Source: Flagellimonas sp. HMM57
Lineage (GTDB): Bacteria; Bacteroidota; Bacteroidia; Flavobacteriales; Flavobacteriaceae
Reading direction: 5' to 3'
NCBI RefSeq assembly: GCF_021390175.1
Contig: NZ_CP090004.1
Coordinates: 496,001-560,000, forward strand
DNA: 64,000 nucleotides
Shown here: piece after piece, positions 7,305-11,184 of the stretch
How positions within the stretch are numbered: position 1 is the first letter of the stretch
How the letters are laid out: each line of letters starts with the position of its first letter
Notes under the pieces: generated by a model
Database searches by the model: none
What the model was told of the DNA's origin: nothing
What the model saw: only the letters and a program-made list of their open reading frames with translations
Position numbers and translations under genes: made by a program

Positions 7305-7340
7305 AAAATCCCGTCTTGCCGTAATGCAGGCGGGATTTTT
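7305..7340 (+). terminator. Intrinsic terminator after the YceI gene
   Basis: A 9-bp stem (aaaatcccg at 7305-7313 with cgggatttt at 7331-7339) extended by an inner cttgc/gcagg stem, then T residues. It lies only 12 bases before the trp promoter. Confidence 0.85.
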
Positions 7341-7350
7341 AAAAAACAAA

Positions 7351-7381
7351 TTTGCAAGTTTCAATTTCCTTTCTATCTTTG
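7351..7381 (+). promoter_or_regulatory. trp operon promoter
   Basis: TTTG at 7351-7354 (-33) and TATCTTTG at 7374-7381 (-7, consensus TAnnTTTG) are separated by 19 bases, the best promoter match in the window. The predicted start of transcription, a few bases after 7381, falls on or next to the leader ATG at 7387, so the trp leader transcript may have no 5' UTR. Confidence 0.8.
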
Positions 7382-7386
7382 ACCTA

Positions 7387-7443
7387 ATGAACATAAGAAC
7401 AACAAATACTTGGTGGTGGATTAATTTACGTCGAATGTCGTGA
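7387..7443 (+). CDS. trpL: trp operon leader peptide (18 residues, three consecutive Trp)
   Basis: ATG to TGA reads MNIRTTNTWWWINLRRMS. Three adjacent TGG codons at 7411-7419 are the classic sign of a tryptophan-sensing leader peptide. It is followed 24 bases later by an intrinsic terminator and then by the trp operon. The last three codons and the stop (7436-7443) form the 5' arm of the alternative antiterminator. Slow decoding of the Trp codons when charged tRNA-Trp is scarce would hold the ribosome about 17 bases before this arm. The start codon lies 5 bases after the promoter -7 box, so initiation is probably leaderless. Confidence 0.88.
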   Translation: MNIRTTNTWWWINLRRMS

Positions 7444-7496
7444 ACCTGTCCCCATTGTAATCATATAGAGGCTTGTCATCACGACAGGCCTTTTTT
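7436..7496 (+). promoter_or_regulatory. trp attenuator: terminator and competing antiterminator
   Basis: Terminator: aggcttgtc (7469-7477) pairs with gacaggcct (7483-7491) through one T-G pair, with a 5-base loop, and is followed by six T. Antiterminator: tgtcgtga (7436-7443) pairs perfectly over 8 bp with tcacgaca (7479-7486), which lies in the terminator loop and 3' arm, so both cannot form together. The 5' antiterminator arm ends on the TGA of the leader peptide. A terminating ribosome would cover it and allow termination; a ribosome stalled at the Trp codons would leave it free and let transcription continue. The pairings are seen directly; the switching is inferred from the classical trp model. 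Confidence 0.85.
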
Positions 7497-7564: not shown

Positions 7565-7849
7565 ATGAGTTTTTATATCTACATAATTTCAAATAAAAAA
7601 CTGGGAACTATTTATATAGGATATACCAATGATTTGAAAAAACGTATGTATAGACACAAAAGAGGTATGGGAAGTAAGTTTGCCAGAAGGTATAATTTAA
7701 AAATTTTGGTTTACTATGAAAAATTCACATTTCCAATGCCTGCTATTAGAAGAGAAAAACAACTCAAAAAATGGAATAGAAATTGGAAAATCAACTTAAT
7801 TAATGACTTTAATCCTAATTGGGAAGATTTGACTTATTTCTTTGAATAA
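7565..7849 (+). CDS. GIY-YIG nuclease family protein
   Basis: A 94-residue single-domain GIY-YIG (URI-type) endonuclease. The motif pair is Y-I-I ... I-Y-I-G-Y-T-N-D-L-K-K-R (residues 6-27), then R-H-K-R-G-M-G-S-K-F-A-R-R, and a helix with the metal-binding Glu in R-R-E-K-Q-L-K-K-W. Such stand-alone genes are scattered through Flavobacteriia; the biological role is unknown. Here it lies between the trp attenuator and trpE, in the same direction, and is bracketed by two palindromes of matching form, which suggests a small mobile cassette now transcribed under tryptophan control. Confidence 0.9.
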   Translation: MSFYIYIISNKKLGTIYIGYTNDLKKRMYRHKRGMGSKFARRYNLKILVYYEKFTFPMPAIRREKQLKKWNRNWKINLINDFNPNWEDLTYFFE

Positions 7850-7890: not shown

Positions 7891-9288
7891 ATGAACTATA
7901 AACTTCAAACACACTACAAAAAAATACTTGCAGACACTATTACTCCGGTAAGTGTCTACCTAAAAATCAGGGATAAATTCCCAAATAGTATTCTTTTGGA
8001 AAGTAGTGACTACCACGCCAACGATAATAGTTTCTCCTACATCTGTTGCAACCCCATAGCTTCAATTAAGGTTGAGCACGAAATGGTTACACAAATATTT
8101 CCGGACGGTAACAAAGAAGAATTCCCTATTTCATCAGATACAGATGTAACCAAGGTCATCCATGAATTTAGTCAAAAATTTTCAGCTTCGAACAATGGCT
8201 TCAAGTTTATAAACAACGGATTGTTTGGTTATATGTCTTATGATGCCGTCCGTTATTTTGAAGATGTCGCCATTGCTAAAAAAGAAGATTCCATCAGCAT
8301 TCCGGATATTTACTATGCCGTATACAAAAACATTATAGCCATTAATCACTTTAAAAATGAAGCCTATCTTTTTGCGCACTGTTTTGAAAGTGAAAGTAAC
8401 GTAGATGAAATAGCACAGTTGTTCAATGTGAGGAACTTTGCCTCCTACAATTTCATCAAAGAAGGAGAACCAAAATCCAATCTAAAAGACGAAGAGTTTA
8501 AAGAACACGTGGCACTGGCAAAAAAACACTGCAAACGTGGAGATGTATTTCAATTGGTCTTATCGCGAAGGTTTTCCCAAGATTTTAAGGGAGACGAATT
8601 CAATGTATATAGGGCATTGCGCTCCGTAAATCCCTCCCCTTACCTATTTTATTTTGATTACGGGGATTTTAAAATATTCGGAAGTTCACCAGAGGCCCAA
8701 TTGATTGTCAAAGATGGAAAAGCGGAGATACATCCCATTGCTGGCACTTATAAAAGAACAGGAAATGATGAGCAAGATGCCGAGCTCGCCAAAAAGTTGG
8801 CACAGGACGATAAGGAAAACAGTGAGCACGTAATGCTGGTAGATTTGGCCAGAAACGACCTTAGCAGAAATGGAAATACCGTAAACGTGGAAACATATCG
8901 CGAAGTACAGTATTTCTCCCATGTCATTCACTTAGTATCTAAAGTTACGGGACAAAAGAAAAAAGATAGTACGACCATGAAAGTTGTGGCCGATACGTTC
9001 CCAGCGGGAACTTTAAGTGGCGCACCCAAACACATGGCCATGCAATTGATAGAGAAATACGAGAAGACAAGTCGAGCATACTATGGGGGCGCTATTGGTT
9101 TTATGGATTTTGAGGGCAACTTCAATCATGCTATTATGATCAGGACGTTTCTCAGTAAAAATCATCAACTACATTATCAGGCCGGAGCTGGTTTAGTAGC
9201 GGCATCAGACCCAGAAATGGAATTACAGGAAACCTATAACAAACTAGGTGCTTTGACCAAAGCGCTGGAAATAGCAGAAACTATCTAG
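7891..9288 (+). CDS. trpE: Anthranilate synthase component I
   Basis: A 465-residue chorismate-using enzyme; with TrpG it makes anthranilate, the first committed step to tryptophan. The L-L-E-S motif (residues 35-38), where tryptophan binds for feedback inhibition, is intact. Chorismate-enzyme signatures follow: F-Q-L-V-L-S-R-R-F, G-S-S-P-E-A, P-I-A-G-T-Y-K-R-T, D-L-A-R-N-D-L, F-P-A-G-T-L-S-G-A-P-K and Q-A-G-A-G-L-V-A-A-S-D-P. It is the first biosynthetic gene of the operon and is separated from trpG by 2 bases. Expression is predicted to be controlled by the attenuator upstream, in addition to feedback control of the protein. Confidence 0.97.
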   Translation: MNYKLQTHYKKILADTITPVSVYLKIRDKFPNSILLESSDYHANDNSFSYICCNPIASIKVEHEMVTQIFPDGNKEEFPISSDTDVTKVIHEFSQKFSASNNGFKFINNGLFGYMSYDAVRYFEDVAIAKKEDSISIPDIYYAVYKNIIAINHFKNEAYLFAHCFESESNVDEIAQLFNVRNFASYNFIKEGEPKSNLKDEEFKEHVALAKKHCKRGDVFQLVLSRRFSQDFKGDEFNVYRALRSVNPSPYLFYFDYGDFKIFGSSPEAQLIVKDGKAEIHPIAGTYKRTGNDEQDAELAKKLAQDDKENSEHVMLVDLARNDLSRNGNTVNVETYREVQYFSHVIHLVSKVTGQKKKDSTTMKVVADTFPAGTLSGAPKHMAMQLIEKYEKTSRAYYGGAIGFMDFEGNFNHAIMIRTFLSKNHQLHYQAGAGLVAASDPEMELQETYNKLGALTKALEIAETI

Positions 9289-10988: not shown

Positions 10989-10990
10989 AA

Positions 10991-11074
10991 GTTTAGAGTT
11001 TAGAGTTTAGAGTTTAGAGTTTAGAGTTTAGAGTTTAGAGTTTAGAGTTTAGAGTTTAGAGTTTAGAGTTTAGA
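10991..11074. repeat. Heptanucleotide tandem array, 12 perfect copies of gtttaga
   Basis: 84 bases made of 12 exact copies, starting just after the trpD stop. Each unit contains TAG on the sense strand. The perfection of the array points to recent expansion or ongoing copy-number change. Confidence 0.95.
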
Positions 11075-11114
11075 AGCATACAAATTTTATAGACAAAAAA
11101 CAATGAGAAACGAA

Positions 11115-11177
11115 CAACTGACAACTGACAACTGACAACTGACAACTGACAACTGACAACTGACAACTGACAACTGA
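11115..11177. repeat. Heptanucleotide tandem array, 9 perfect copies of caactga
   Basis: 63 bases of nine exact copies, ending 7 bases before the trpC ATG. Its unit differs in sequence from the array 40 bases upstream, but the period is the same. Each unit contains TGA on the sense strand. Confidence 0.95.
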
Positions 11178-11184
11178 CAAAAAA

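Follow-up and report, generated by a model that had tools for sequence, protein, structure and literature searches.

A Bacteroid-trp leader ahead of trpE in Flagellimonas sp. HMM57 as a probable ribosome-mediated attenuator with three predicted folds

The window analyzed here is a stretch of 64,000 nucleotides from Flagellimonas sp. HMM57 (contig NZ_CP090004.1, positions 496,001 to 560,000), and all positions below are counted from its first base. Its trp genes begin with trpE (Table 1) and continue as open reading frames to 14755; from the sequences of these frames, the genes after trpE are presumably trpD, trpC and trpF, among others. A 94-aa gene with a GIY-YIG nuclease domain (7565-7849, 61.7 bits), present in a single copy in the genome, lies between the leader element and trpE, and because of this gene 398 nt separate the terminator from trpE, where the median distance is 34. 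A related GIY-YIG gene stands behind the attenuator at 3 other loci (L267, L069 and L072), and a partial one at L037. Between trpD and trpC there are 2 perfect tandem arrays of 7-base units, AGTTTAG repeated 12.1 times (10990-11074) and ACAACTG repeated 9.6 times (11114-11180). A repeat suspected inside trpF (from 12228) was dismissed, since the genome contains no other good copy of it.

Ahead of these genes lies a short leader open reading frame with tandem Trp codons, and between its ATG and the Trp codons there is no further in-frame ATG, GTG or TTG. The first-pass annotation of this DNA had described an 18-codon leader with 3 adjacent TGG codons, which is exact base for base, followed by an intrinsic terminator and T run, which we confirm with the stem placed as in Table 1. 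Its 8-bp perfect antiterminator is equally exact: TCACGACA, the last four bases of the terminator loop plus the first four of the terminator 3' arm, is the exact complement of TGTCGTGA. Antiterminator and terminator are mutually exclusive, bases 7483-7486 being common to both.

Table 1. Features of the trp leader region in the window.
Feature	Position	Strand	Basis
-33 promoter box TTTG (TTG from -34 if +1 = 7386)	7351..7354	+	TTG recurrence in short-spacing leaders
RF01692 Bacteroid-trp match	7367..7477	+	52.2 bits, gathering score 49; model 1-131
-7 promoter box TATCTTTG, consensus TAnnTTTG	7374..7381	+	sequence; box position in PMC9723704
Predicted transcription start at 7386 or at the A of the leader ATG (7387)	7386..7386	+	box position
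Leader peptide ORF MNIRTTNTWWWINLRRMS*, 18 codons + TGA (7441-7443)	7387..7443	+	sequence
Predicted protector, outer strand 1, pairs with 7448-7459	7407..7421	+	predicted fold, z-scores
Three tandem Trp codons TGGTGGTGG, shared with protector strand 1	7411..7419	+	sequence
Predicted protector, inner strand TTTACG, pairs with 7439-7444, hiding antiterminator arm	7425..7430	+	predicted fold; moderate enrichment over shuffles
Antiterminator 5' arm TGTCGTGA, contains TGA stop	7436..7443	+	sequence, covariation
Predicted protector, outer strand 2	7448..7459	+	predicted fold
Intrinsic terminator hairpin, 7467-7477 with 7483-7493, loop 7478-7482	7467..7493	+	-15.9 kcal/mol
Antiterminator 3' arm TCACGACA	7479..7486	+	sequence, covariation
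Terminator T run	7491..7496	+	sequence
trpE, first trp gene behind attenuator	7891..9288	+	Pfam Chorismate_bind, Anth_synt_I_N

The element is a member of the catalogued family RF01692, Bacteroid-trp, and not a new kind. RF01692 is the sole Rfam match at gathering score within the 64 kb, no T-box or other Rfam cis-element reaching that score there, and a weak match to RF02596 (24.2 bits against 35.7) was taken as chance. The match scores above the family cut-off, contains a Trp-codon leader ORF ahead of trp genes, and occurs in the Bacteroidota. Rfam titles the family Bacteroidete tryptophan peptide leader RNA, and Table 1 of PMC2864571 (2010) marks it y for RNA and y for cis-regulatory, while the word tryptophan is absent from the accessible part of that paper's main text. 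Novelty of the element is therefore not supported. At E<=0.001, RF01692 was found in 178 of 249 sampled genomes of the window's own family, 52 of 201 from a second family, 20 of 247 from an additional order, and 42 of 395 sampled phylum-wide, with the caution that these samples overlap and that strict filters and partly listed misses leave divergent leaders under-sampled.

For comparison, 243 of 274 loci were kept (those dropped were duplicates, chance pattern hits, or had no leader or terminator found), and 45 of 46 later loci brought the total to 288 leaders: 153 Rfam-selected, 90 pattern-selected (among the matches listed), and 45 later Rfam-selected. The selection pattern contained CGTGA with a gap of 8-38 to the Trp codons, and our headline arm statistics use Rfam-selected loci only. 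A similarity limit of 0.78 gave 47 diverged leaders, 45 of which form alignment A1; of the two left out, L295 has a normal arm and L309 has neither CGTGA nor CGTAA. The leaders of L006, which belongs to the window genome's family, and of L175, from Cellulophaga sp. F20128, are identical. The comparison establishes the sequence elements and their position before trpE or trpB: the first trp gene within 1500 nt downstream encodes TrpE in 237 of the 288 leaders, TrpB in 48 and TrpD in 1, with none in 2, and the Trp run is WWW in 264 leaders and WW in the other 24, all having been selected for TGGTGG.

It likewise establishes the covariation of both terminator and antiterminator. Across the 45 aligned leaders, 99.4% of terminator stem cells are paired and 58 cells are changed on both sides. 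The antiterminator columns (43-51 with 149-157 in A1) are paired in 81.6% of cells, and their 28 both-side changes compare with 9.7 +- 2.3 in shuffled controls and were reached in 0 of 500 shuffles, where such shuffle counts, here and below, are inflated by related rows and are not probabilities; slid registers yield 0-10. Both stems, for which the first-pass annotation had proposed a covariation check on relatives' leaders, covary, and its antiterminator recurs with compensatory changes. In the window, a helix equally good at pairing with the loop and 3' arm appears in 1% of 200 single-letter shuffles of the stretch from last TGG to terminator, and this figure is at most 5% in 215 of 243 leaders. 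The comparison supports the antiterminator as a predicted helix. A local hairpin between arm and terminator, GUAU/AUAC, which had looked conserved by eye only, was rejected as no better than shuffles (mean z +0.33).

In the 45 aligned leaders, the middle stop-codon base sits in a G-C pair in 27, an A-U pair in 11, a G-U pair in 5 and something else in 2. Over all 288 leaders, the loop partner is C in 147, T in 5 and another base in 9 when the arm holds a TGA stop, and T in 12, C in 0 and another base in 10 when it holds a TAA stop. Where TGA in the arm is not the stop codon, the partner is C in 83, T in 1 and other in 2; where TAA in the arm is not the stop codon, it is C in 3, T in 4 and other in 1, and the C in 3 of these 8 counts against the correspondence. 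At L131, GTCGCAA stands opposite TTGCGAC. Three leaders (L092, L107 and L114) have GGCTTATC terminators, and their arm pairs GTGAGA with TCTCAC, the loop plus the end of the terminator 5' arm; the CG before the arm is lost in L092 and L107 and kept in L114. A literature search whose reach ended short of supplements and most subscription papers found no earlier description of a covarying, loop-capturing antiterminator that contains the stop codon.

The distance of this arm from the Trp codons is also established by the comparison as nearly fixed. In the 153 Rfam-selected leaders, the G of CGTGA follows the end of the last TGG by 20 nt in 113, by 21 nt in 27, and by 19, 22 or 23 nt in 5, so the arm core lies 19-23 nt past the last TGG in 145, the remaining 8 being without CGTGA. 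The same 19-23 nt is found in 87 of the 90 pattern-selected leaders, among the matches listed, despite the wide gap that the pattern allowed. In 88 of the 145, the stop codon ends together with the GTGA of the arm; 28 have it 4-5 nt farther on and 29 have it 6-14 nt earlier. Its position needs 39 changes on the TrpE tree. An antiterminator ending exactly on the leader stop codon, as first claimed, is thus what the window has and the commonest state, but it is not a rule. Judged across these sequences, the steadier quantity is the arm-to-Trp-codon distance rather than the stop position, and since the one is near-fixed and the other variable, the Trp codons appear to determine where the arm sits. 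The stop codon would then only need a position at which the terminating ribosome keeps the arm covered. If the hairpin were instead a plain terminator of the upstream YceI-like gene, which ends about 185 bases before it, and the Trp-rich ORF a chance one, no Trp regulation would be expected; conserved arm spacing, covariation and the trpE/trpB context all argue against this, a weaker terminator-like site lies closer to the YceI-like gene, at 7315-7330, and we regard this explanation as highly improbable. The element is real and conserved, and very probably a trp attenuator.

The edge of each modelled ribosome was set, by the toeprint convention, 16 nt beyond the P-site codon's first base. In the window without a ribosome, the folding model gives the antiterminator a probability of 0.00-0.02. 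With a ribosome stalled on TGG 2 or 3, this becomes 0.93-0.99 at free 3' ends from 7484 to 7490, 0.63 (TGG 2) or 0.83 (TGG 3) at 7491, and 0.07 or 0.16 at 7494, while a ribosome on the stop codon leaves the antiterminator at 0.00 and, from 7486 onward, the terminator at 0.82-1.00. On TGG 1, the antiterminator stands at 0.81-0.97 from 7484 to 7489, 0.23 at 7490 and 0.01 at 7491; a stall there would probably make a weaker switch. A terminator that is wholly free outcompetes the antiterminator even when a ribosome is stalled, and the switch would therefore be kinetic; the antiterminator helix emerges ahead of terminator completion. All three states occur at some 3' end in 45 of the 47 diverged leaders, in a test where the arm was chosen by best complement and one satisfying 3' end suffices; 1 leader lacks the free-RNA state and 1 (L275) fails. 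Trp attenuation by ribosome stalling and masking of the 5' arm by a ribosome at the stop, both part of the initial reading, draw support from comparison or modelling.

That reading also held that only two competing hairpins are needed. In its favour, antiterminator and terminator alone suffice in the folding model for the stalled and the terminating ribosome; on this reading, untranslated RNA would antiterminate. Covariation of a protector was absent in the one outer register tested (51.0% paired, 464 of 500 shuffles as high, 45 leaders), and the RNAalifold consensus of 45 leaders holds the terminator alone. However, in all 47 diverged leaders the stretch from Trp codons to terminator has a better fold than its dinucleotide shuffles (mean z -2.13), and the predicted antiterminator probability in free RNA averages 0.10 over these leaders (below 0.3 in 42, above 0.7 in 4) and rises to 0.57 when the codons between Trp run and arm are shuffled. 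Shuffling the spacer behind the arm gives 0.23, and shuffling both segments 0.49; behind a stalled ribosome the value is 0.93, or 0.74 with a shuffled spacer. One slid register of the outer stem paired better (68.4%), and we would blame the absent outer-stem covariation, as a guess, on alignment slippage at the two- or three-codon Trp run. An alignment-free test of the inner helix gave p<=0.05 in 9 of 44 diverged leaders with a median p of 0.22, a moderate enrichment. A design of two hairpins only is unlikely, and we put little weight on it; in the folding model, untranslated RNA probably has its arm concealed by a protector built from the leader codons.

Most of 7351-7381 would be promoter sequence rather than leader RNA. 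TAnnTTTG sits at -12 to -5 according to PMC9723704, and promoters with 4 or 5 nt from the -7 element to the start are deemed probable in PMC6847099. The position of the window's box relative to the ATG predicts a 5' UTR of 0-1 nt, which would put the leader AUG at +1 or +2 and make the leader peptide leaderless. The first 19 bases of the RF01692 match (7367-7385), which include the -7 box, lie upstream of the inferred transcription start. In the 268 of 288 leaders where box-to-ATG spacing could be taken, it is 4 in 10, 5 in 43, 6-13 in 47, 14-24 in 147, more than 24 in 18 and less than 4 in 3. The box chosen was the one nearest the Trp codons, and L023 has a second box 18 nt from the ATG, so spacing 4 (ten leaders) is assigned with less certainty than spacing 5 (43 leaders). 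TTG falls exactly at -34 in 37 of the 53 leaders with 4-5 nt spacing (265 of 288 leaders analyzed; excluded were 14 without a box, 6 without an ATG and 3 with spacing below 4), and 46 of the 53 have no later in-frame start ahead of the Trp codons. Among the named loci, of which part are labelled, spacing 5 occurs in Maribacter, Flagellimonas, Allomuricauda, Eudoraea, Mesonia and Salegentibacter, and spacing 4 in Euzebyella and one Flavobacterium (L160), other named Flavobacterium having 17-24. The label "spacing 3-6", carried by 53 rows, requires 17 changes on a tree built from 217 TrpE pieces, and well-supported branches force 7 of these changes.

The same attenuator could start further upstream and not be leaderless, as the prevalence of 14-24 nt spacings might suggest, and leaderless mRNAs are a small minority (5.5%) in F. 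psychrophilum according to PMC9723704. TAnnTTTG and the TTG at -34 nevertheless both fit a start at 7386, and the TTG recurs in most short-spacing leaders; we consider the upstream start unlikely, if a good deal less so than the plain terminator. No leaderless trp leader in Bacteroidota was found within the reach of our literature search.

In our judgment, this RF01692 member very probably controls the trp operon by ribosome-mediated transcription attenuation with three folds, a mechanism for which we infer the ribosome footprint, the start site, the kinetic order and the response to Trp. RNA polymerase would start at 7386 or 7387, leaving the leader AUG at the extreme 5' end. If the leader goes untranslated, its codons would fold over the arm as the protector, and the terminator would form. 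If tRNA-Trp is scarce, a ribosome would halt on TGG 2 or 3, covering the 5' strand of the protector and leaving about 8 or 5 nt between its edge and the arm. The free arm would then capture the terminator loop and the start of the 3' strand as they emerge, before the terminator is complete, and polymerase would continue towards trpE. If Trp is plentiful, the ribosome would reach the TGA and cover the arm, and the terminator would form.

We lean, though only slightly, towards regarding this as the Bacteroidota's own design of trp attenuator, in which an arm that commonly includes the stop codon captures the loop while the terminator is still incomplete and keeps a nearly constant distance to the Trp codons, combined with leaderless loading in several lineages, including that of the window, in a phylum whose mRNAs are without Shine-Dalgarno sites. 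What the sequences would add to RF01692 is a covarying antiterminator containing the stop codon and a predicted leaderless leader, so that an RNA motif known from a catalogue becomes a mechanism that can be tested. This mechanism predicts coupling between stop-codon identity and terminator-loop sequence, an arm position set by the ribosome footprint, and a leaderless leader able to time a kinetic switch although it has no Shine-Dalgarno site. Within its reach, our literature search found no experimentally tested leader-peptide attenuator in Bacteroidota.

Among known systems, Flavobacterium psychrophilum resembles the window in having Bacteroid-trp, an element described in PMC6414381, ahead of the trp operon, together with strong clues for leader-peptide attenuation ahead of amino-acid operons (PMC9723704); unlike our analysis, these accounts give no antiterminator in their accessible parts. 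The trpL attenuator of Sinorhizobium meliloti, whose transcript starts at the leader ATG according to PMC7298713, is like the window prediction by description rather than by sequence, and belongs to the alphaproteobacteria (PMC10117765) and not to the Bacteroidota. The RF01692 model stops at the terminator 5' arm without an antiterminator, which the window analysis adds; its first bases are promoter in the window, and its consensus hairpin covers the same stretch as the window protector, a likeness of extent and not pair by pair. The classical attenuator of Escherichia coli trp has tandem Trp codons, a 1:2 protector, an antiterminator and a terminator, with ribosome position setting the outcome. 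The window shares the tandem Trp codons, the antiterminator and the terminator; its protector is predicted from folding and shuffle controls, and ribosome position would set the outcome there too. In E. coli, region 2 pairs with the terminator 5' arm, whereas in the window and the alignment the antiterminator takes the terminator loop and 3' arm instead, and in the window the stop codon lies inside region 2.
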